64,000 bases of DNA from Caenorhabditis elegans (Eukaryota; Nematoda; Chromadorea; Rhabditida; Rhabditidae): positions 12,892,501 to 12,956,500 of the forward strand of contig NC_003280.10 in NCBI RefSeq assembly GCF_000002985.6, written 5' to 3'. Below, one piece after another: positions 2,599 to 54,600 of the stretch (the first letter of the stretch is position 1; every line of letters starts with the position of its first letter). The notes below the pieces were generated by a model. That model made no database searches. It was not told where the DNA came from and saw nothing but the letters and a program-made list of their open reading frames with translations. Position numbers and translations under genes: made by a program.

Positions 2599-3139
2599 CT
2601 GAAGATGAACTTTACTTAATTGATGTCACAAACAAAAATCAATTAAAAAACTACTTTGAAAATGAATGACAAATTCAGTAATGATAAGAAGCCCGCAAAC
2701 GTCATTTACTAACATAAGATTGTTATAATTAATCAAAAGGTGCTGGTGACATTTTGGTAGACGATAAGTTGCGCTAAAGGCCAAATCTAATTAAAGTTCA
2801 AGTTCAAATTATAAACAAACATTCTAAAAATTTTCAGTTAAGTCGATTAGTTGGGTGGGGTTGTTTAAACTTTTCAACACGAAATTTCAATTAACAACAC
2901 CCATCAGTCCTTCCTGCTATCTTTAATTCTAAAAAATTTAATAGCCATCGGTTTTGAAATGTATGCTGCACCTCCTGGTGATAAGGTGTTATCAGTGATG
3001 GGGGAGCATACGAAAATTGTCTTAAAATACGCCCCCTCCCAAGCAGTTCTCATCATTTTCTCATCGTTAGTTGGCTTCTTTTCAAGTTTTTAAACAAATT
3101 CAATTTAATATTATTATTAGTATTATTATGTTTTCAGCC
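2599..3139. promoter_or_regulatory. Divergent intergenic region between lectin genes 1 and 2
   Basis: A 541-bp AT-rich spacer separates two divergent vWA/lectin genes and must hold both promoters. TTTTCAG at 3131-3137, two bases before the plus-strand start codon, looks like a spliced-leader acceptor. No TATA box or specific operator was recognised. Confidence 0.6.
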
Positions 3140-4887
3140 ATGTTCAAACTGGTGAGCTTGGCACTGACCCTTGTGGCTCTTGCCTCCGCACAAGATAGCA
3201 CTACATCATGGCAAACAGGAGCAACACAAGGACCAACACCATCAACACCACCACCAACTCCAGGGGGCTCAAATGTCGACCGTGAATGCGGTGGAGACTT
3301 GACCAACCTTTGGCTTGATGTTGTCGTCGTCGTCGACAACTCCAAGGGTATGACCAATGAAGGAATCACCGAAATCGCCGCCAACATCGTCACCGTCTTC
3401 GGAAACGGAACCAGAATCGGAAACCAGTACTCCGACCCAAGATCCACCAGACTCGGACTTGTCACCTATAACGGAAGATCCACTATCGTCGCTGACTTGA
3501 ACCTCCTTCAATCGATCGACGACCTCTACCAATCGGTTTTCTCTACTCTCAACCAGGTCAGCAACTCCGACGACTCTTTCCTGGCTAAAGGAATCGGTGC
3601 CGCAGAGAATGTGCTCCAATCCGGAAGAACCAATGGAGTTCGATCGAACTACAAGAGACTCGTCGTTGTCTACGCTTCAGCTTACAAGTAAGAACTTACG
3701 TAGAATACTTTCTTTCTTGTCTGTTAAAATTCATCTATTTCGTCTTGAGAGGGTTTTGATGCGATTACTAGAACTTTGAACAAATACGCATGGTCGAATC
3801 GGATTATAAATTAACCTATGCTCTTACCTTACTAAGCTTAGGCTTACAGCTTAGGTTAAATTTAAGCTTACATCAATTCCAACCAAAACGTCGTACTTCT
3901 GTTGGATCCTTCAACTCTGCGGAAACTTCGGTAAAGGGAGCATTTAGGAATTTCTGAAGATCAGACAAAAATAGAGAGCACCCAAATATTTAAAGTAATT
4001 ACACACTCCTACGTTTCAGGGGAGAAGGCGAGCTCGACCCCATTCCAGTCGCCGATCGTCTCAAGTCCTCCGGAGTCGTTGTCTCCACCGTTGCCTTCGA
4101 CCAGGACGGAGATGAGGCTCTTCTCGCCGGACTCACCAACATCGCCTCGCCAAACTACGCTTTCACCTCCAAGGACTTGAACTTGGTTGGAGAACTTCAA
4201 GGAGCTGCTCTTCAAAGTAAGATCCTTAGTTGTTCTACCAATACATAAAATTTCAAAATTACAGCCAACTGCTTCTGCCCGAACTTGTGGACCCAATACA
4301 AGTCGAACTTCGACGACGAGAACTCTTACAAATACGGAGTGTGCATCCGCCCCGCCACCATCTCCTCATCCTGGACCGCTGCCAAGTTCGCGTGCCAGAA
4401 CCTCGCCAAGAACGGATTCCTCGCCGCCGAGTACGACGGACAGAAGCACAACTTCCTCTTCAGAGTCGCCCAGAACAACACCGCCTTCCAAGCTCCATAC
4501 ATCTATCACATCGGATTGAGTTATGTGAACGGAGGATGGAATTGGCAGCAACCAGCTGGATACCCACTCAAGCCAGTAAGTTTTGCCGTTGTCACGTAAT
4601 GATGTAAGATGATGATAGTCGTATTGAACCTTGAAAAAGATCAAATCACTAGAAGTGATAACGAAAAATTGAACATTGTTCGGATGATAAGCCTAATCAA
4701 TTTTCAGATGAGCGGCTACTCCAAATGGAACCCATCCTATCCAAAGTCCTTCACCAGCAACATCGGAGTCGTTGAGCAGCAATTCAGCTCGGATCTCACT
4801 GTTGGATGGCAGAACATCAACGCATACAGTGTTGCTGAGTACTACATGTGCGAAGTCGCTTCCTGTGATACCGACAAGTATTGTTAA
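3140..4887 (+). CDS. Secreted vWA + C-type lectin domain protein 2
   Basis: Four exons (3140-3687, 4020-4216, 4265-4575, 4708-4887), 411 aa. The start at 3140 is preferred over the in-frame ATG at 3128 because TTTTCAG lies between them and would be a trans-splice site. Signal peptide about residues 1-17; a Thr/Pro-rich linker of about 30 residues follows; then a vWA domain (WLDVVVVVDNSKGM; MIDAS lacks the second Ser) and a C-type lectin domain ending in the family tail CDTDKYC. Codon use is strongly biased to C. elegans optimal codons (GTC, ATC, CTC, GGA, CCA), unlike the four paralogs, which suggests high expression. In C. elegans, vWA/CTLD genes such as clec-60 and clec-61 are intestinal and pathogen-induced; this may be one of that group, but I cannot fix the symbol. 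Confidence 0.95.
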
Positions 4888-5789: not shown

Positions 5790-7902
5790 ATGTTACTAAA
5801 CCTACTTGCCATTTTCACTGCTTTTGCAACAACCCAAGCTTCAACTGATCGCAACTGTGGAAGTAACTGGAATAACCTTTGGCTAGACATCGTTATAGTC
5901 GTGGATAACTCGAAAGGCATGACAAACGAAGGAATCACAGAAGTTGCAGCCAATATTGCGACCACATTTGCAAGTGGCCCAAGAATTGGAACGGACTATT
6001 CTGATCCAAGATCTACCAGGCTTAGCATACTCACTTATAATAGTGAGGCTACAGTTGTCGCTGACTTGAATCAGTTTCAGTCGGCCGATGACGTCTATCA
6101 GACGCTTTTCTCGTTTCTCAATGAGGTCAGTGACTCTGATGATTCGTTCCTGGCGAAAGGGCTTGGGATGGCTGAGAGTGTTCTTTACAATGGAAGGATG
6201 AATGGAGTTAGAGAGAATTATAATCGATTGGTTGTGGTTTATGCTTCAGCTTACAGGTAGAAGCTTAGATTTGTTTTTTGAAAGTTAAACTAAAATTAGT
6301 TTATATACAATTTCTTGCCAATATTTGGAAAAGAAAAACTCATAAACGTTTCAAACGGTATGTAGTTTGAATCAGGGTTTGCAGTTCGGCAAATCGGCAA
6401 CTTGCCGGTTTGCCGGAACTTTTCCATTCCGGCAATCTGCATGTTTTCAAATTGCCGGAAAATATATCATTATCATTTTCAGCAAATTTTTTTGTTCACA
6501 AATTCGATAAATTGGCAAATTGCCGGAAGTTTGCCGGAAATGTTTAGAGCGATTTTTTTTAAGATGAAAACACATAAAACTCTGCCTTTTTGAAATTTTA
6601 CCCCGTTTTCTTAATATATTTTTATAGAATTTGCATTCTACTCAAAATAGATGTAGAAACATTCATAGGATACGTACATTTTTGCCGATTAAAATTGAAA
6701 TTCTGAAATTTCCAAAAAAAAAATGTGCAAGACCACAATTTGCCCGAAATTTTTATTCCGGAAATTTGCCGATTTGCCGGAAATTCGCTGATTTGCCGGA
6801 AATATTTATTCCGGAAATTTGCCGATTTGCCGGAAATTTGCTGATTTGCGATTTTCCGGAAATTTGCTGAAAATTTGCCGATTTGCCGGAAATTTTTATT
6901 CCGGTAAATTTGCCGATTCGCAGGAAATTTTCATTCCGAAAGTTTGCCGGTTTGACAAAAATTCCAACTCCGGCAATTTGATCCGATTTGCCGGAAAAGT
7001 CGTTTGCCGAAAAAAAAAGTTTTTCCAGAGAAGATGGAGAAGACCCCCTAAACATTGCAAAACGTCTGAGATCATCTGGAGTAGCGATCGCAACCGTCGC
7101 TTTTGACCCAGATGGAGATGGGCTCCTACTGAGCAAGCTCTCAAAAATCGCATCACCAAATATGTCATTCAAGTCTAGAGATCCCAATTTGGTCGGCAAA
7201 ATTCAGGCAGCCGCTCTTCAGAGTACGTTTTCTCTTTCTTAGTGGTGGAATTTTACAAAAAATTTAAAATGGTTTGATTTCAGCAAACTGTTTCTGTCCA
7301 AGAACTTGGATTCAATACAGGCCAAGCTATGACGACGAGAAGTCTTATAAATTTGGAATTTGCATCCGAGCCGAAACTATAACTGCATCATGGGCAAGTG
7401 CAAAGATCGCTTGCCAGAATAGCATTAAATATGGTTACCTTGTAACCGAGTTTGATGATCGGAAGCATGATTTTTTGTTCAGTGAGTCATTCATACAAGT
7501 TTTCCAGTGCCAAAGACTTTGCACAATATTTAGAATTCCAGGAATAGCTCTGAACAATGCTGAATTCACTGAACCTTACGCTTATCACACCGGGTTGAGC
7601 TATGTCAACGGAGCATGGAGATGGCAGCAGCCAGAAGGACACCCACTCATTTTGGTATAACAGCTTTAGCTTTATTTTTCCTCTCTGTCTGGCAACTCAA
7701 TATACTGTAATTCCAGCAAAATGGAAGTTACTCGCATTGGAATCCAACATATCCGAACACCCCATTCACCAACACCGTTGTCGTTAATCATCAGCATAAC
7801 TCGAATCTAGACGTCGGATGGCAAAACATCAATGGATACCGAGAAAATGAGAATTATATGTGTGAAGTTGCATCATGTGATACTGATAAATATTGTGATT
7901 GA
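5790..7902 (+). CDS. Secreted vWA + C-type lectin domain protein 3
   Basis: Five exons (5790-6256, 7029-7222, 7284-7481, 7542-7654, 7717-7902), 385 aa. Signal peptide about 1-16, vWA domain (WLDIVIVVDNSKGM), then a lectin domain ending CDTDKYCD. It is closest to the gene at 3140: most of the vWA aligns residue for residue, but the Thr/Pro linker is missing and codon use is relaxed, so it is probably less expressed. Intron 1 (6257-7028) is mostly an R1 minisatellite whose end abuts the 3' splice site. Intron positions match lectin gene 1, whereas gene 2 has lost the one inside the lectin domain. Function inferred from family only. Confidence 0.93.
6380..7012. repeat. R1 minisatellite array (TTTGCCGGAAATT type)
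   Basis: Degenerate units of roughly 30-40 bp alternate TTTGCCGATTTGCCGG and AAATTTTTATTCCGG. The array fills intron 1 of lectin gene 3 and stops within about 15 bp of the acceptor at 7028. Confidence 0.85.
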
Positions 7903-11981: not shown

Positions 11982-14045
11982 ATGCATCAGATTCTAACAT
12001 TATTTTTGCTGGCATTGGGTGGGTTTTTCAAAAAAAAAAATATGAAGAGAAAACATTTAATTTTCCAAGTTTTCCAGCCGCCTCACCATCCCAAGCAGTC
12101 ACCGATCGATCATGCGGATCAGACTTGAGCCGTCTCTGGCTGGATATTGTATTCGTGGTGGACAACTCTAAAAATATGAACCTGTATAATGTATATAACA
12201 CAATCTCAAACTTGTTCAATCCATTCGTGCAAATCGGAACTGGGTATGATGACCCGAGAAGTACCCGAGTCGGATTTATCACCTATAACTGGAATGCGAC
12301 TGATGTGAGTTTAATAAAGTCACAGTTAATTTGCAAGGTGTTCAACAGGAGGAAAAGTACCGTAACTAGATATTTCAGGTAGCAGACTTCTACAAGTTGC
12401 AATCCTACTCCGATCTAAGCAGTCAAATTCAAGCGCTCAGTGTTACACCACTCTCCCGCGCCGATGAGACCTATATTGATACTGGACTTCAAGCGGCTAT
12501 TAATATGATCAATGCTACAGGAGGACTTCGAGACAACTATAAAAAGGTTGTAGTACTATTCACCTCCAAGTATAAGTATGTTACCTAGAGTATCCTATCT
12601 AGTAGTCTATGTACTATTTCAGCTACTATCATACCTATCCAGAAGACTTGACGGATTACCTAAAGTCAACTGGAGTTACGATTATCACTGTAAACACTGG
12701 TGGGGATAGTTATACAACTCAGAGTCTTCGTGATAAAATTGCAAGCAAGGGAATGGCTTTTGCTATGTCTGATGGAAATACTACAGCGGAGTTGCAGAAG
12801 GCGGTTTTGGCAAGTGAGTTGATGTGTGATCGCAATGGAATTCGGCAAATCGGCAATTTGCCGGTTTGCCGATTTGCCGGAAATTTTCAATCCCGGCAAA
12901 TTGCAGGTTCGCCGATTTGCCGGAAATTTTCAATCCCGGCAAATTGCAGGTTTGCCGATTTGCCGGAAATTTTCAATTCCGGCAAATTGTCGACTTGCCG
13001 TTTGCCGGCTATCAGATTTGCCGGAAATATTTAGAGGGATTTTGTATAAGACGAATGCACTTAAAACTGTGCAATTTTTCTCGTTTTTTCTACATATTTT
13101 CATAGAATATGCTTAATTTTCAAAATAGATTTAGGAACATTCAAAGGATGCGTTTAATTTTGCCATTTGAAATTGAAATTCTGAAACTTCCAAAACAAAT
13201 AAGTACAAAACCACAATTTGCCGAAAATTTTAGGCAAATCGGAAATTTGCCGATTCGCCGATTTGCCGGAAATTTTATATTCCGGCAATTTGTCGATTTG
13301 CCGATTCGTTTGCCGCGCACCCCTGGTCAGAGTGTCTCGTTTCGGCGTGATCTACGTAGATCTACAAAAAATGCGGGGGAAGAGATGCAGCGAAGGGAGT
13401 TTTCAACTGATTTTGCATGGTTAAAAGCGTGTTGACGTCACATTTTTTGGGAAAAAAATTCCCGCATTTTTTGTAGATCAAACCGTAATGGGGCAGCCTA
13501 GTATCATACAAACTTTTTTTTCAGTCAACTGCTTCTGCCGTCCGGGATGGATGCAATATCACTACCCACTGAAATCCGATAACATTTACTCTAACTACGG
13601 TGTCTGCCTCTACCGTCCAGACAGTGCCATGACTAAATTCGCCGCTCAAAGCTATTGCCATTCCCTCACAACTAATGGATATCTTGTCAGCGAGCTTGAC
13701 CAACAGAAGAGAGCGTTCAATTGGGGTAAACAATACGATGCTCTTATGCTTATTCTACAATTTTTCCAATTTTCAGACTACCTCAACTCGAAGGGAATCA
13801 CAATCAACGCCTTCTACAACGGGCTCACCAACTACAACGGAACCTGGTGGTGGGATCAGCCGAGCGGCCAGCCACTGTGGCCATTGAACCCTAATTCAGG
13901 AGCACCTCCACAGCGATCCGGGTGTGTTGTAGACATGAAGTATTCTGATGGCTCGATTTCATGGACTCCGATCAGTTGCACAAGCTTTTTCCGGTTCCTA
14001 TGCGAGTCCGTTGCATGTGATACGGATAATTATTGTGAATTTTGA
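11982..14045 (+). CDS. Secreted vWA + C-type lectin domain protein 5
   Basis: Six exons (11982-12018, 12078-12304, 12379-12575, 12623-12813, 13525-13725, 13777-14045), 373 aa. The start MHQILTLFLLALG gives a signal peptide joined in phase to the mature N-terminus. vWA strand WLDIVFVVDNSKNM; the lectin domain has INCFCRPGW, a NAFYNGL core, WWWDQP, and the tail CDTDNYCEF. It is the sister of the gene at 8832, having lost two introns of the lectin half and one in the vWA half. Intron 4 is 711 bp and holds an R1 array followed directly by an R2 element. Likely secreted; ligand unknown. Confidence 0.92.
12835..13325. repeat. R1 minisatellite array in intron 4 of lectin gene 5
   Basis: Begins about 20 bp after the donor and ends TTTGCCGCGCACCCCTG, the expected inverse of the CAGGGGTGGGCGGCAA terminus. 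Units are close to TTGCCGGAAATTTTCAATCC. Confidence 0.85.
13326..13505. repeat. R2 element directly abutting R1
   Basis: Begins GTCAGAGTGTCTCGTTTCGG and ends TAATGGGGCAGCCTAGTATC; the outer CACGTG ends are missing. It joins the R1 right end without a gap, so one element may have inserted into the other. Confidence 0.75.
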
Positions 14046-16599: not shown

Positions 16600-17779
16600 A
16601 TGAAGCAAATATTCCAATTTCTAATAATTCTGGCTTTCATCACTTCATCGGCATATGCTATCAAATGTCATCAATGCGGAGGCGCTGAGAAAATCCCGAA
16701 ATTTGCGAAAAACGCTCTGGCGAAGCTGAATATTTCGGTGGATAGTGTAGGTTTTTTGGGAAACTTTGAGATTTGATGCATATAAATATTTTTTAGCTTT
16801 ACGGGGACTGCAAAAAGACGTCTGGAAGTGATATGTGCTCCAATGGAACGTTTTGCTTGAAGCGTGCAAGTATGTAAAGTTTTGAAATTTTTGGTAGGCA
16901 GGCACGTAGGTGTTGGTAAGCATTTGGGAAGGTAGACATTCACCATGGTAGCACCCCCATCAGGTTACAAATTTTTTTGCCGGTTTGCCGATTTGGTGGA
17001 AATTTTCAATGCCGACGATCTGCCGGTTGGCCGATTTGCCGGAAATTTTTATTTTTGGCAAATTGCCGATTTGCCGTTTGCCGGATATCAGATTTGCCGA
17101 AAATGTTAAGAGGAATTTTTTATAGAACGGAAACACTTAAAACTGTGTCTTTTTGAAATGTTTTCCGTTTTTTTTTTTAATTTCAATTTTGGCAAGTGCC
17201 GAATTTGCCGGAAATTTTTAATTCCGACAAAGTGCCGATTTTTCGAAATTTCATTCCCGGCAATTTGCCGATTTGCCGATTTGCCAAACATTTTCATTCC
17301 GGCAATTTGCCGATTTGCCGATTTGCCGGAAAAATTGTTTGCCGCCCACACCCGTGTTTGTGATGGAACGCGCAAACTATAGTCAAAATTTTCAGAAGTC
17401 TACCAAATCGGTTACAGTGGTGTCAACTTGAAATGGACTACGTATACAAAAGTGAGTGTGGCTTCTTGGGTGTAACATTTGCGTGGCCGTGGAATTTTTC
17501 TAGGCCACCGTTTTTTTTTGTTTCAGGGATGTGCGACTCTCCGCGAGGACAATGACCAAATCCCAACGAACACATGTTATGAGCTCGGGCAAGTGAGCAA
17601 TTCGTCGGGATACACTGCGGCAAGTACAGTAATCCTTTCAGCCTAAATTTCCAATATTCCAGAAGCGAATGGATTGCTATTGCCAGAAAGACTTTTGCAA
17701 CTCGACTACAAATCTTGGCGGCTCACTTATAATGACAATTTTATTCGTTTTATCAATTTTTGTGCAATATTCTATCTAA
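16600..17779 (+). CDS. Ly-6/uPAR-type GPI-anchored surface protein
   Basis: Five exons (16600-16746, 16797-16869, 17396-17451, 17527-17628, 17663-17779), 164 aa. A signal peptide (1-20) is followed by CHQCGG, an evenly spaced set of Cys, and the diagnostic Ly-6 end CYCQKDFCN. After that comes a C-terminal hydrophobic stretch (SLIMTILFVLSIFVQYSI), the usual GPI-attachment signal. Members of this nematode family act at the cell surface, some on receptors or in lipid storage; no specific role can be read here. Keeping the frame forces the last intron to be only 34 bp (17629-17662), unusually short. Intron 3 carries an R1 array. It is convergent with the minus-strand gene at 17960. Confidence 0.85.
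16975..17352. repeat. R1 minisatellite array in intron 3 of the Ly-6 gene
   Basis: TTTGCCGATTTGCCGG-type units; it ends TTTGCCGCCCACACCCGTG, a mutated version of the R1 right terminus. Confidence 0.8.
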
Positions 17780-17959
17780 ACATAGGGAGCAAATAAAAAG
17801 AAGTTCAGACTCGTTTATAAGACCTCTTCTGAATGCTTCGGCGCTTTCGTCGCAAGACCTGCAGCTTCTTGAAACATTCACACGCGGTGCGGAGCGATTT
17901 GTGAGAATCGAGTTGTGGGAAGCAGAAGCCGCCTTCGGAGCCCTGGAATAGGATTAAGA

Positions 17960-20900
17960 TTATAATTTCTGGGAAAGAAGCTCAATAACCTGATCCTTGC
18001 ACTTTTCCGAGCATGCCATTTGTCGGGTTTCGCAAATACTTCCATCTAGTGGGGTAATGTATTCATAGCATTTGCAGCTTAAAAAAACACATTTTTTAGG
18101 TTTTGAAAACGCTCTGGTAGGCTTTCAGGGTAGGCACAAAGTTGCCTGGGTGCCTACATTTTGCCTGCTTTACTTTACCAACTACTCTATTTCGAAAGGC
18201 TATATCTCGGTTCATTTAGCAGATATTAATATACAGTCAACTACAAAATTATAGAAAAAGATATAACAAATATTTTGTTAGATGACTTTTTTTGTATAAA
18301 ACAAACGTCAACTGAGATATAAGCTATCAAAGCACGTGGCTGTCCCATTACGGTTTGATCTACGTAGATCTACAAAAAATGCGGAAGAAGTAACGCAGAG
18401 TTTTCAACTGATTTTGCACCGTTAAAAACGTGCTTACGTCACATTTTTTGGGCAAAAAAACCCCGCATTTTTTGTAGATCAAACGGTAATTGGACAACCT
18501 GGCAACACGTGTCAAAGTCGAACAGTGCTATAAAACACTAATAGATAAAAATTTCTCAGAAAATACACGTGATGTCAGGCTGTCCCATGATGGTGCGATC
18601 TACAAAAAATGCGGGAATTTTTCCCCAGAAAAACCCGCAATTCTTGTAGATCAAACCGAAATGGGACACTCTGGCACCACTAAGAATACTCAGTCAAAAC
18701 TCACCTGAAATTGAACCCATCCCACCCATTACAATGTCCATACCAAAAACTATCCGTCTTACACACTTCGTCACATGCTTGATGGTCGAGAAAAGTGCAC
18801 GCGCCTCTGAAATATATTTATTTTTTCGATACAATTTAAAATCCCCTCATTTCCTAGAGGCACACAGTAGTGGCTATTTGATTCGGGAAGGTGTTGGCGA
18901 ATGGCTAATGATCTGTTTCGTAGAGCGTTGCAATTGCAGGGTGGTTTTTGTGATTGTGATGGAGGGAAACTTGTTTCGTTTTGTTGTGGCGAAATGATGA
19001 TTTTCAGAAGGTGGCAATTTGAATTTTTTTTTTAGACAAAAAGTTCGGAATTTTTCCCATGATCTTTGAAAATGTTGGGCGCAGAGATCATACTTTACTA
19101 TTATTACCGTGTTTCCTCTAATAGTATTGCACCCCAACATTGACAGCTCATATCTCAGTTGCCGTTTGTTTTATTGAAAAATGGTCAACTGACAAAATAT
19201 TTGTTAGATGTTTTGCTATATATTTGTAGTTGAAAATTTATTGATAACTTTTAAACGAACCGAGATATATTCTTTTAAAGTAGAGTAGTTGGGTGCAATA
19301 CTATTAGAGGAAATACGGTATATAGCTTGAATATATAACTTGGAAAAAAATGGTCGAATGACAAAATACCAAAATTAGTAAATTGACAACACTCTTTGCT
19401 CAGTAGTATATAAATTTTTCGATTTCTAAAAAATGGGATTCAAAAATTGATCAATTTTGCCAAAATAAAAAAGTGGCAGCATAATTTGATAATTTTTGAA
19501 TTCCCCCACAAATGAATGTCCTAAATTCGGCGTTTTCCTGCTTTTTTACATGTTTTCCAATTTCTCTCTTCGATCAAATTTTCACAAATTTTTCCGTAAA
19601 AAAAACTAGAGAACACGAGAAAAAAATATCAAATTTAATTAAAAGTTTTCATTGGAGTTTTGAAAAAAAGTCGAATTTTTTTCGGATTTTCATATTTAAA
19701 TATGTAAATAAAAATATTTTAACTTTCTGAAAATAACATTACTTTTAATTGAAAGTTTTCAAAAATATGCTCAAAAACTGTCCTGAAAGTCGTAATGTGC
19801 TGATCGGTAGATTACAAATTTCATGCCAGTTTTTGAACTAGGTTTTGAAAATTTAAATAAAAAGTAAAGTTATTTTCAGAAAGGGAAATATTTTCCAATA
19901 TTTAAATATAAAAATACGATAAAAATACTTTGACGAAACGAATAGAAAACGGGGATATTGTAAAATTAAATTATTAATTTTTTAAATTATTTTGTAAAAT
20001 TAAATTATTAATTTTTTAAATTATTTTGTAAAATTAAATTTAAATTAAATTAAAAATTAAAAATTTCCGGAAAATTGGCAATTTGCGGTAATCTGAAATT
20101 TCCGGCAAATCAGCAAATTGCGGGAATTGAAAGTTTCCGGCAAATCGGCAAACTGTCGAAATTAAACATTTCCGGCATATCGTCAAATTGCCGGGATTGA
20201 AAATTTCCGGCAAATCAGCGAATGGCCTGAATCGAAAATTTCTGTCAAATAGGCAATTGCGGGAATCGAAAATTCCCGCAATTCGACCAATTGCCGGAAT
20301 TGAAAATTTTCCGCGAATTGGCAAATTGGCAGAATTGGAAATTTCCGGCAAATCAGCAAATTGCCGGAGTTGCCAAGGTGCCACCCGCGATATGTCGGCT
20401 TCTATGAAAAAGTTTCCAATTTTTTAATTATAGATAGTGTAAACCCCACATATTCTCAATTGAAACTTTACTTCTAGAATCTTTAGTTTTTGATGAATGT
20501 ACATATACCTATATGCCTAGATCATTCCAGCAATACCTAACAGTTTTCAATTTCCAATTACAGTTTCCTCCATTGTACCCCCATTTCAAGTAGATCAAAA
20601 GTCATGTGGTCTAGTTGTATTCTTTGTGAGATGACTAAACCTCATTTCGTTGTGGGGTGTCATAAAAATTTTGAACACACACACGCTGGCGAAGAGCGGA
20701 AGCAATGACCATTTAAAACCTCCAGTTTTCTCCCGGTATTGGAGGAAAAACGGTTTCCTATTCCCCCCTGATAATTGCAAAATGGGAATGACAAAAGTGA
20801 AGATTTTGCACGTTTTTTTCTTGGGACAGGAGGGTTTTCGAATGGTGGGCCACTTGAAATTAAATCAAAGGTCATACTGAACAACTGGACACTTATGGGG

Positions 20901-22006
20901 GATGTGGGGGAAAGGAACTTGTAGATGATTTTGTTTTATAGGTCAATTTAGAAAAAACCTATTAAGGCCTGCCTGCCTGCCTACTCGGCGTTTGCTTTGC
21001 GTTTTTACATGATTGTTTGGCGCTTTTTGCACTGATCAAATTTTTTTGCCGATTTGCCGAACGGAAATTGTTGCCCACCTCCAAAGGGAAAATTGGCAAT
21101 TTGCCGGAATTGAATCGAAAATTTTTGGCAAATTGCCGGAATTGAATATTCCGGCAAATTGGCAACTTGCCGGAATTGAAAATTTTTGGCAAATTGCTGG
21201 AATTGGATATTCCGGAAAATTGGCAAATTGTCGGGAATGAAAATTTCCAGCAAATTGGCAAATCGCAGGAAATGAAAAAATCCGGCAAATCGGCAGTTGC
21301 CGGAATCGAAAATTTTCGGCAAATCAGCAAATTGCCGGAATTTAAAATTTCCGGAAAGGTGGCAAATTGCCGGAATTGAAAATTTCCGGCAAATTACCGG
21401 AATTCAAAATTTTTGGCAAAGTGCCGGAACTGAACATTTCTGGTAAATTGCTGTAAATGAAAATTTCCGGCAAATCGGCAAATTGGTGGAATTAAAAATT
21501 TCCTGCAAATTTTTTAAAAAGTGTTTCCGTCTTATAAAAATCCCTCCAAACACTTCCGGCAAACAGCAAATTGTCAACTTGCCGAAAATTAAAGTTTCAG
21601 GCAAATCAGCAAACCGGCAAATTGCCGATTCGCCAAGTTTGTCGACAAAAAAATTTGCCTCTCTAAACACTTCCGGCAAATTGATATCCGGCAAACGGTA
21701 AATAGACAATTTGCCGAAAATGAAAATTTCAGGCAAATCGGCAAACCGGCAAATTGTCGATTTACCGAATACAGTATACGAATGAAGAACTCTGAGTGTC
21801 TAAAATTGGAATTGACACGTATCACAAACCCTAAAGTCACTACTATCAATAAAGTAAAGTTCAACTTGATCGTAGTTATACTTCTGTGTGTCGGAATCTA
21901 TCCCATGACTAATACTACTACTACTACTACTACACTATTATTCCAAAACTAACCTGACCCTGAACGGCTGCAACGAGAGAAGAAACGCGAAAAATAGGAA
22001 AAGCAT
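17960..22006 (-). CDS. Cysteine-rich CS-alpha-beta (defensin-like) secreted peptide
   Basis: Three-exon model on the minus strand: 22006-21954 (signal peptide MLFLFFAFLLSLQPF), 18806-18705 and 18077-17960, 90 aa. Splice phases fit at both junctions. The mature part has the order C-x7-C-x3-C-x9-C-x9-C-x-C, the arrangement of cysteine-stabilised alpha-beta peptides such as invertebrate defensins, followed by a further C-x6-C-x3-C. Nine Cys in the mature part is an odd number, so one may be free or pair between chains. Exons 2 and 3 are well supported; linking exon 1 across a 3.1-kb intron full of R1, R2 and R3 repeats is inference from phase and the lack of another signal-peptide exon. An antimicrobial or signalling role is only a family guess. 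Confidence 0.6.
18180..18335. repeat. R3 half-element
   Basis: AAAGGCTATATCTCGGTTC through AAACGTCAACTGAGATATAAG, the right-hand part of R3. It lies immediately before an R2 copy, in intron 2 of the minus-strand gene. Confidence 0.7.
18336..18512. repeat. R2 inverted-repeat element
   Basis: GTGGCTGTCCCATTACGG at the left, GGACAACCTGGCAACACGTG at the right, with GATCTACGTAGATCTAC and ATTTTTTGTAGATCAAAC arms. Confidence 0.8.
18564..18685. repeat. R2 inverted-repeat element, short copy
   Basis: Starts ACACGTGATGTCAGGCTGTC and ends GGACACTCTGGCACCAC. The central loop is deleted compared with the other copies. Confidence 0.8.
19128..19325. repeat. R3 inverted-repeat element
   Basis: Outer ends CTCTAATAGTATTGCACCC and GGGTGCAATACTATTAGAG are perfect inverses. 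The interior carries CATATCTCAGTTGCCG and GAACCGAGATATATTC. Confidence 0.85.
20060..20382. repeat. R1 minisatellite array (inverted orientation)
   Basis: Units TTTCCGGCAAATCGGCAAAT / TGCCGGAATTGAAAAT; lies within the 3.1-kb intron of the defensin-like gene. No terminal CAGGGG motif seen. Confidence 0.8.
21035..21780. repeat. Long R1 minisatellite array
   Basis: About 745 bp of TTGCCGGAATTGAAAATTTC-like units, the largest R1 array in the window. It starts after GTTGCCCACCTCC, a decayed terminus, and ends TTGTCGATTTACCGAATAC. Confidence 0.8.
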
Positions 22007-23089
22007 TTTTCTTTTCAGAGTGACAGAGAGAGAGAAAGATACTTCTTCTACTCTGTACTGAATTGACGACGCCGAAATATGTCGGACTGTGTCCCCCGTC
22101 TGAGAAAAGAACAGAAGATGGGGCGGTGCTTACTATTAGGGGGAAGGGGTATGAATGATACTTGTAAAAGGGGAAATTGATGGGGGGAAAAAGAAAATGG
22201 AGAGAGTGAAAGTCTATGGTGGAATAAATAAAGGAAATGATTAGTATTTAGAATTCCTTAATTTGAAAGAAAACTTGCCATTTCGCCTGAAAAGTCGATA
22301 AAAATAAGCGAAACATCCCAAAAAAACTGAAAATTCATTTTTTTAAGCCAATTAATCCATTTAATTTGAATTTCGCGCGGAATTGAGTTTGGCGGATTCT
22401 CGGCCGTGTACTCCACTCGGACAATCATTTAATTAGGCAATTCTTCGTATTTTATCATCATTTTTCTGTTTTTCAGTTGAAAATTGATGATTTAGAACAT
22501 AAAATCTTTAATTTATAAGAAATTCAGCTATTTTATTTTGTTTAAAAGTAGAAACAGCGTGAAAAACACGATATTCTTTGGTAAATGCCTAAAAATCTAC
22601 TAAAATTCGAAAAAATTGATTTTGTTCGTATTTTATCACGGGATTTGTGTTTTTTTTTTCTGTTTCTTAATCTTAAAACAAATAAAAAGACGTTTTTTTT
22701 TAATAAATTAAATATTTTAATGTTCTAAACCATCAATTTTCCACTGAAAAACAGAAGAAATCATGATAAAATACGTAGAATTCCCAAATTAAATGATTGT
22801 CCGAGCGGAGTAAACGAGAATTCATAAAACTCGTTTCTGCTTTCTATTAAAATTTGTGAGTTCTTTGGATTTCGCGGTCTATATTTTCCTTATAGCTTAA
22901 AAGATTTGCTTTTTTTAAACAAAAATGGTCATATACGCCCAGTTGTATTTATTGTTAAATCAGAACAAGTGGAATTGGTAACCGATATTATTGTAAACAT
23001 TAAAATGTGGGAAAACTGGGTGAAATCGTCATTGAACGGGGGGTGATGGAGAAATTGGGAAGACAGGCGATATACATATATCAATATAA
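22007..23089. other. Upstream region of the defensin-like gene and 3' flank of the zinc-finger gene
   Basis: 22007-22250 contains a GA-rich tract and is the likely promoter of the minus-strand gene. 22400-22825 is an imperfect palindrome. AATAAA of the zinc-finger gene (minus strand) lies near 22945. No further gene is supported. Confidence 0.6.
22400..22825. repeat. Imperfect palindrome of about 425 bp
   Basis: TTCTCGGCCGTGTACTCC and CGGACAATCATTTAATT at the left are mirrored by AAATTAAATGATTGTCCG and GGAGTAAACGAGAATTC at the right. The inner TTGATGATTTAGAACA segment also recurs inverted. Confidence 0.8.
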
Positions 23090-51697: not shown

Positions 51698-54600
51698 TTA
51701 TCGGAAGGCGTTCACATTGGGGCTCGGCGTTGGATTACTGTTTTGCTGCTGAGCATATCTAAACGAATCGGTGTCCGATGCGACTGCAAATTGACGTTTC
51801 GAGAAGCTCGATGGACTCCTGACAGACGTCGCCCAGGTGAAGGCGATCAAATTCCAGTCGAGACCCATCGGATCTTGACCGCCCGATAGAAATGAGATTA
51901 TTGTGCAAATGACGATGAAAAGCTGAAATTTTAAAACTTTAATTAGTGGAAGAGCCATAAATAAAGTCTTACCATTAAACTAATAATTGGCTGGGACTGC
52001 GGTGGGAGATGTGATACAAAGTACAGCACTCTTTCCATGCTCAGTGACCTATGAACAATTGTAGAATTCCCAACAGCATCTTCCAAAATACACGAATTTT
52101 GGAACTTTTGAGGAGCATTATTGAATAGGTAAATCGATAAATTCCCAGCGGTCAGAATGATTGTCAGCAGGAAACTTGAAATAGCACCCGTTGCAGAACA
52201 AAATGGTAGATAGTAGCCACAAATCGTAACACCTGCGATGATTGCCAACAATGAGCTGAAAATATTCAAACTACCCAGTGCTTTCCGGAAATTTCAAGAT
52301 TTTTCAGGGCCGCGCGCACGCAGCCCCGATACGCAAAAATTAAGCTGTTGGCGAATCTCAACTCGAGACTGCCACACGGGTCAGCCCGCCCAAAAGTGCA
52401 ATGGGTAGGCCTCACCATGGGGATTCCGTCTTCATGATCACGAAATAACCCCCAGCCAGGTAAGTTTATGAGGCTGCGCGCGGAGGGACTAGTGCTCGCG
52501 TGTGTGCCGACATGTGGCGGGTTCCGCCGCTCGCTGCGGAAAGCGCGGGGGGAGGCGGAGCGAGGAGAATGTGAGAGAGTGGGAGAATGATGAGAGGGCG
52601 CAGACGGGAAGAGGAAACGCGAAATTTGTTAGTTTTTGTGGGGTTTTGGCGATTTTTGTGCCATTCTTTCGAGGTTTTTAACTTACAAAAGTACATATAC
52701 AATAGTCGGCAACTGTATACCGATCGGCAACCGTGCCAAATTAGCAGCCACCGTCAAAACCACCACAGCAGTCGTCAAAATGAGCATTCCGAATTGCAAA
52801 GAGCACAATTGCTGAATGGGATTCCAAGCTCTCAACCTCTTCGCCCAATACTCTTCCCAAGTTAAAGTCATCAATGACATAATTGTCCATTGCAGACAGA
52901 ACGAGAGTATGCAAAGCATGGAGGCGCAGACAGTGAACACCTGAATTCGATTCCCCAAAATCGCCTTGGAAAACTGGAAGAATGAGCCGAAAGACATGGC
53001 GAATTTGCAGTGTTCGCGGAGAAAATTGAGGAAAATTGTGGCGGATAGAAAGATGAAAATTGAGATGAAAAGTTGGAAGACTCCGTAGAAAGTTAGTGTG
53101 AGCCGGAGTTTGTGCATTGTTGGCATCGGGGAATAGATCTTGAAAAATATTGATTTTTTAAAAAATTATCTGATATTTTGCGATTTATTGGTCTCACCAC
53201 GACATATTTTTGTTATTCTGAAAAAAGGTGTGCGCCTTTAAAGAGTACTGTAATTTTCAAATTTCGACTGTTCATAGTTTTTCTCACGATTTATTGAAAT
53301 TTTATACGTTTTTAACGTAAAATTATAGTTTTTAACTACGGAAAAAACATTTTTATTTAAAAAAAACTGTGAAAAATCGATGAAAATCTCACAAGAATGA
53401 AAGTTCAAAACTACAGTCCTCTTTAAAGGCGCATGCCTTTTTCCATTTGACAAATCATTGTAGTGTCGAGACCTGGTACAGTATTTTTATTGAAAAAAAT
53501 CTCTGACACACCTGGTTTTGAAAACTCGAGTTCAGTTTTGCGATAATTGTGCTAAAATTACGGTCGCTGGTCTCACACGACATAAAAGGTGTGCGCCTTT
53601 AAATAGTTTCAAACTTTCGTTGTTGCGGGATTTGCATCGATTTTTCATAGTTTTTCTCACGATTTGTTGAAATTTTATACGTTTTTATCGAAAAATTACA
53701 GTTTATATTAAAGAAAGAATAAAAATCTATGAAAAATCAGTACTCTTCAAAGGCGCATACCTTTTGACAAATAATTGTCGTGTTGAGGCCCGGGTACTGT
53801 TTTTTATTGAAAAAACACGCGGTTCTGGCTTCCCTCATAAATTGAAATGAAAGAGTTTGCCGAACTAGGCCATTTTGGCTCGGCCATATCTGGGGTAGAT
53901 TTACGGCGCGTTGCGTGTCGCGTCGCGGCTCAATTTTAGTTGTAAAACTAAATGTATTTGTCCGTGTGGAGTAAACGACTTTCCCACGCGTTGTCCGGCG
54001 GGCGATTGTCAATGGAGCGCGAAAAATGCAATGAGGAAGGCCAGAACCCCGTGAAAAAACTAACCTGGTATTGAAAACTCGAGTTCAGTAGGTAAAAATT
54101 GACGGTAAATCCAACCATCAAACTGGATAAAATATCAGAAAGTCTGAAATTTTCGACAGGAACCAGTATTCCAAATGATTGAACATCTTGCACAGCATAG
54201 TACAAGAAGATTCCGATTCCAGATATTGAAACCTGAAATTTTGACATTTTTTTTGCTGCAGTCTTGACTTTCGTACCGAGACCCAACGCGCTTTTTCTGC
54301 GCCCCAATAATAAAACTCACCACAATGTAAAGCAAAAAGCTCGCATTTGCCATACTCGAATGTCCACTAAAGATCACTGCAAAAAGTGAGAAATAGGCGA
54401 CAAGTGGAATAATTAGGTAAATTGAGAGATTAGTGATTGTGGAGAGAAACGATGAGCTGAGAAACAGGAGAATTATTGATGTCGTGGACAGGTGTATGCA
54501 TTGAGTTATTGTGATTATTGATCGTACTGAAAATTTGAAATTTTTATTTTAAAAAAACACGTGGTGTCAGGCTGTCCCATAACGGTTTGATCTACAAAAA

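Follow-up and report, generated by a model that had tools for sequence, protein, structure and literature searches.

On the minus strand of a 64,000-nucleotide (nt) stretch of Caenorhabditis elegans chromosome II (contig NC_003280.10, positions 12,892,501 to 12,956,500; the whole stretch is called the window here, and coordinates count from its first letter), we identify what is very probably a four-exon gene whose predicted product carries two cysteine-stabilised alpha-beta (CS-alpha-beta) domains in tandem, with its role left open; on chromosome II the gene spans 12,910,305-12,914,506. When gene, fold and role are taken together, we lean towards a secreted two-domain CS-alpha-beta host-defence effector. 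The original prediction for this region had described a three-exon gene ending at 17960 that encodes one peptide with nine cysteines, a candidate that we rejected in favour of the four-exon model because a 47-nt intron completes the second domain. The gene model comprises the following features, in which a slash marks a splice border.

22100..22108, minus strand: acceptor-like sequence TTTTCTCAG upstream of the ATG, possibly a trans-splice site or a splice site of the 5′ untranslated region
21954..22006, minus strand: exon 1, signal-peptide-like coding part MLFLFFAFLLSLQPFRV plus two bases; donor CAG/GTTAGT; phase 2
18807..21953, minus strand: intron 1, 3147 nt, about 40-46% delimited repeats
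18705..18806, minus strand: exon 2, cysteines 1-4 of domain 1; acceptor ATTTCAG/AG, donor CAG/GTGAGT; phase 2
18078..18704, minus strand: intron 2, 627 nt, with inverted repeats inside; acceptor ends AAG
17990..18077, minus strand: exon 3, cysteines 5-6 of domain 1 (C-x-C), linker and cysteines 1-3 of domain 2; donor CAG/GTTATT; phase 0
17943..17989, minus strand: intron 3, 47 nt; its retention yields a 90-residue product with nine cysteines
17805..17942, minus strand: exon 4, cysteines 4-6 of domain 2, basic tail LRRKRRSIQKRSYKRV and stop TGA at 17805
17740..17745, minus strand: polyadenylation signal AATAAA, about 60 nt past the exon-4 stop

All three introns have GT/AG borders, and the four-exon frame contains no internal stop. 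The three exons proposed earlier (22006-21954, 18806-18705 and 18077-17960) do join in phase into a 90-residue open reading frame (ORF), with GT/AG at each junction and nine cysteines at the claimed spacings of 7, 3, 9, 9, 1, 11, 6 and 3. What changes is the predicted end of the gene, which is placed not at 17960 but beyond the 47-nt intron (17989-17943), in a fourth exon that runs to the TGA at 17805. This intron has an in-frame donor CAG/GTTATT at 17990/17989 and an acceptor TATTCCAG/GG at 17943/17942. Among 51 donor-acceptor pairs tried at the end of exon 3, four satisfy the acceptor rule, and the 47-nt intron alone among these four completes the framework of domain 2. The odd count of nine thus arose because exon 4 was missed: the 'extra' cysteine triplet belongs to domain 2 as its first half, and the non-classic arrangement is an artefact of reading one and a half of two tandem six-cysteine frameworks. 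A missed 47-nt intron can make a regular tandem defensin look like an odd-cysteine peculiarity.

As a chance control, we counted how often a downstream stretch completes C-x(4-16)-C-x-C by way of splicing or read-through. Such exon-4-like completion is seen in 9 of 4000 dinucleotide shuffles under a strict acceptor rule and in 20 of 1000 when the rule is loose; among 8000 positions drawn at random from the real window sequence, 47 show it. The chance level of the exon-4 pattern is therefore about 0.2-0.6% by the strict rule and 2% by the loose rule.

The frame of exon 2, followed upstream, reaches a stop codon before any ATG, and therefore an upstream exon is required. As alternatives for the first exon, 15 phase-2 ATG-to-GT candidates were compared between 23100 and 18807 (4.3 kb); judged by sequence, the start at ATG 22006 exceeds all the others in hydrophobicity. 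Position 21954 is the best-looking donor (AG/GTTAGT) among the possible ends of the exon beginning at this ATG. These features are consistent with exon 1 being a predicted signal-peptide exon.

The spliced protein is MLFLFFAFLLSLQPFRVRGACTFLDHQACDEVCKTDSFWYGHCNGWDGFNFSCKCYEYITPLDGSICETRQMACSEKCKDQGSEGGFCFPQLDSHKSLRTACECFKKLQVLRRKRRSIQKRSYKRV, a chain of 126 residues with 12 cysteines at spacings of 7, 3, 9, 9, 1, 11, 6, 3, 9, 13 and 1. Domain 1 has the framework C-x7-C-x3-C-x9-C-x9-C-x-C and domain 2 the framework C-x6-C-x3-C-x9-C-x13-C-x-C, so both conform to the pattern C1..C2-x3-C3..C4..C5-x-C6 given for the cis-defensin superfamily in PMC5234102. Both also carry a GxC (gamma-core) motif at the fourth cysteine, as GHC in domain 1 and GFC in domain 2. 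Aligned with each other, the domains are 24% identical, including a shared A-C-x-E-x-C-K, and their likeness beyond the cysteines is suggestive only. With K, R, D and E counted, domain 1 has a net charge of −4, domain 2 is neutral (0) and the C-terminal tail, which contains the stretch RRKRR, reaches +10.

Database matches point towards one fold. The Pfam profile Gamma-thionin (PF00304) aligns with residues 19-56, that is, domain 1, at an expect value (E) of 0.0022 and 18.6 bits, which is below the curated 25.1-bit cut-off, and it matches the 90-residue three-exon product at E 0.0011. Domain 2 draws weak Pfam matches to Toxin_3 (E 0.057) and SLR1-BP (E 0.034). A PDB search with the whole protein returns two chains, drosomycin at E 0.091 and a flower gamma-thionin at E 0.56, and one with domain 2 returns a single chain, a scorpion sodium-channel protein (E 0.37); all three have the CS-alpha-beta fold. 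NCBIfam lists one family, actinodefensin: the whole protein matches at E 5.8e-5, domains 1 and 2 on their own at 0.0037 and 0.042, and the 90-residue product at 0.0031. The score, 23.5 bits, is far from the family cut-off of 65.

These matches were compared with those of seven decoys in which cysteine positions were kept and other residues shuffled, together with three full shuffles for Pfam. The full shuffles reach neither Gamma-thionin nor SLR1-BP in Pfam (0 of 3). None of the seven cysteine-fixed decoys matches actinodefensin in NCBIfam, where one matches another cysteine-rich family at E 5.3, and none matches a CS-alpha-beta entry in the PDB. Four of these decoys do find PDB chains, five in total at E 0.15-1.3, all named as proteins of other kinds. 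The real protein is therefore set apart from the decoys by the kind of PDB match, with three of three belonging to one fold, and not by E value. At the level of sequence, then, the assignment of both domains to the CS-alpha-beta class holds, as had been proposed for the domain 1 core, with Gamma-thionin, drosomycin and the actinodefensin profile in agreement.

Several observations weigh against the reading of a two-domain CS-alpha-beta effector. No Pfam or NCBIfam profile match attains its curated cut-off. Gamma-thionin is reached by one of the seven cysteine-fixed decoys (E 0.0049) and SLR1-BP by three of them, the best of which (E 0.019, from the same shuffle that matches Gamma-thionin) beats the 0.034 of domain 2; since a cysteine-fixed shuffle scores alike, both matches reflect mostly cysteine spacing. 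The E values of the real PDB matches (0.09-0.56) differ little from those of the decoys. The non-cysteine residues common to both domains number five in cysteine-anchored loops (P 0.06) and three in fixed-length loops (P 0.04). Codon statistics give the exons +0.12 to +0.38 bits per codon, and they are uninformative in that exons 2 and 4 each have another frame that outscores the coding one. In addition, the intron 2 acceptor AAG is less usual than YAG, and the acidic character of domain 1 departs from the cationic one typical of antimicrobial defensins.

The possibility that there is no working gene, and that the exons arose by chance or are decayed remnants among the many repeats, gains from these weak codon statistics and from a genome search that yields no paralogue at E up to 10. 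Four phase-matched exons, three GT/AG introns without an internal stop, two framework domains followed by a polyadenylation signal and the low chance level of the exon-4 pattern together make it very improbable. A three-exon gene with one CS-alpha-beta core, an unusual C-x6-C-x3-C block and nine cysteines would agree with a frame that stays open to a stop at 17960, with the nine-cysteine product expected from intron retention and with the Gamma-thionin match, which it keeps (E 0.0011). We consider it very improbable, given that its cysteine number is odd, that the extra block fits half a domain whose other half lies right behind a 47-nt GT/AG intron, that an actinodefensin match over residues 61-105 depends on exon 4 and that AATAAA follows the exon-4 stop by about 60 nt. 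A more serious alternative accepts the same four-exon, two-domain protein and denies it antimicrobial action, making it a secreted signal, a channel ligand or a recognition protein. The CS-alpha-beta fold is used in such roles in plants and venoms, and the fold alone cannot choose between an antimicrobial and a non-antimicrobial function. The net charge of −4 on domain 1 and the weak matches of domain 2 to Toxin_3 and SLR1-BP (the latter equalled by a decoy) speak for this alternative, whereas the lectin neighbourhood and the strongly basic tail speak against it, and we regard it as possible but less likely than a host-defence role.

If the host-defence reading is correct, the signal peptide would be cleaved from the 126-residue precursor and the protein secreted, each domain would form a helix and a beta sheet joined by three disulfides (C1-C4, C2-C5 and C3-C6), and the exported effector would bind microbial surfaces, with its two domains providing two-point attachment. 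The RRKRR stretch resembles what we take to be a proprotein-convertase site, and therefore the tail may be removable. Because the domains carry charges of −4 and 0 and the tail +10, any membrane action should hinge on the tail, and membrane binding is expected to be governed by the tail itself or by its trimming at RRKRR. A specific version of this scheme, in which domain 1 is acidic, domain 2 neutral and the basic tail cleavable, and in which cutting of the tail sets the activity of a two-headed immune effector, is offered tentatively and is rather unlikely. C. elegans is a main model of innate immunity, and with a host-defence role the gene, which neighbours lectin genes from a group that responds to infection, would offer an immune effector open to direct testing.

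Comparison with known systems places the gene near several defensin types. Nematode CS-alpha-beta genes have been sorted into four subgroups with one cysteine array each, and the C. elegans CS-alpha-beta peptides with tested activity are the ABFs (PMC10506718); the subgroup account in the main-text section of that article, taken without its supplementary tables, does not mention tandem domains. The traditional six-cysteine, insect-type nematode defensins, such as the C. remanei cremycins, are small secreted peptides with the same framework per domain (PMC10506718, PMC5116183). The array of the traditional insect defensin is thus present in each domain here, but with two domains per chain, and a genome search with Defensin_2 (PF01097) does not recover the gene. 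Gene structure also differs: the cremycin-type nematode DTAFP has two exons and one phase-1 intron, whereas the present gene has four exons with introns of phases 2, 2 and 0. The C. elegans ABFs (ASABF-type, mollusc and nematode defensins) share the CS-alpha-beta class and the species, but they have eight cysteines rather than six per domain. A genome search with PF16839, presumably the ASABF family, gives six places at E up to 10, and the gene is absent from all of them; three places, all on chromosome I, exceed the cut-off. Domain 1 finds its top matches in the PDB and Pfam in drosomycin and plant gamma-thionin, but the drosomycin type has eight cysteines with a fourth disulfide joining the termini, which is absent from the six-cysteine domains described here.

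MtDef5 of Medicago truncatula likewise combines a signal peptide with two defensin domains in one chain, so plants do have bi-domain defensins; however, its domains are 84% identical and the protein has a net charge of +16, in contrast to 24% identity and one acidic domain here (PMC5700942). Mehamycin, a bi-domain DTAFP of plant-parasitic nematodes, is also a nematode CS-alpha-beta peptide called bi-domain, but the second domain described in PMC9751787 is a single-disulfide insertion of 10-22 residues before the helix and not a second CS-alpha-beta domain. Actinodefensins, which are bacterial cis-defensins, are the sole NCBIfam match of the whole protein and of each domain, far below the cut-off. 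In the defensin literature searched, no nematode protein was found described with two diverged tandem CS-alpha-beta domains of unlike charge and a cleavable basic tail, and literature searched for F35C5, F58G1 and defensins, with supplementary tables outside the search, gives no account of the gene.

A protein search of the genome at E up to 10, in which the best candidates were scored exon by exon, returns three matches, all of them the gene's own exons. Gamma-thionin finds eight places at the same limit, with exon 2 of the gene the best, and the other seven hold no six-cysteine framework in an open frame. Each place was then subjected to a one-splice test under a strict and a looser acceptor rule. 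The strict test finds nothing and misses the gene itself, whose intron 2 ends AAG, and is therefore powerless; the looser test recovers the gene, finds nothing at six of the seven other places and gives one match with a poor donor at the last (L011). On chromosome X, an open frame with a weak Gamma-thionin match (L009, positions 1363-1678, E 2.4) shows a signal-like stretch followed by C-x6-C-x3-C, and no partner exon was found for it in the one-splice test. A cysteine-rich open frame on chromosome I (L017, positions 1501-1587) matches PF16839 weakly (E 0.57), and one splice gives it no six-cysteine framework.

The gene adjoins C-type lectin genes that combine VWA and Lectin_C parts, in line with the original prediction of lectins nearby, and this proximity is weak evidence of gene function. 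A Pfam scan of ORFs and an Rfam search locate the following.

3071-3688: VWA ORF
4249-4596: Lectin_C ORF
13425-14042: weak Lectin_C ORF, below cut-off
52304-52467, minus strand: one gene for the spliceosomal U1 small nuclear RNA (snRNA), with an Rfam score of 122.6 bits

The ORF at 7268-7657 has no Pfam match at E 0.01, and a six-frame Lectin_C search of the genome at E up to 0.001 gives at least 118 matches among the best 150 of 173 candidates, none within the window. The published reverse primer for clec-63 (F35C5.6; PMC7672543) matches the window exactly at 4356-4375, and the forward primer lacks any exact contiguous match there. The genes clec-62, -63, -65 and -66 are tabulated with the pathogens that elicit their response (PMC8510530). 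Between 23 and 36 kb lie ORFs of zinc-finger, Piwi and phosphatase type, which are consistent with cosmid F58G1, from which F58G1.1 is a PAZ/PIWI gene (PMC2440555), F58G1.2 is predicted to bind nucleic acid (PMC5859877) and F58G1.7 is among the genes directly downstream of snRNA loci (PMC6390993). On the opposite strand, 16600-16776 (plus) holds the start of another small, secreted-looking frame that contains cysteines (MKQIFQFLIILAFITSSAYAIKCHQCGG...) and has no Pfam match at E 0.01.

Intron 1 had been described as almost entirely repeats. Repeats are present, although their delimited extent is smaller: of the 3147 nt, direct-repeat families together with one dispersed element account for 1258 (40%), and adding further inverted arms raises this to 1457 nt (46%). 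Repeats of about 35 nt of the GGCAAATTGCC type lie chiefly at 20041-20388 and 21100-21773. The dispersed element, at 19105-19320, is short and bounded by 30-nt terminal inverted repeats that are 97% complementary; it has at least 79 matches genome-wide among the best 40 of 387 candidates, and the window contains additional copies near 15.4-15.6 and 16.0-16.2 kb. An inverted repeat of 153 nt (82%) has one arm in intron 2 (18178-18330) and the other in intron 1 (19140-19292), flanking exon 2, and could allow the pre-mRNA to pair around this exon.

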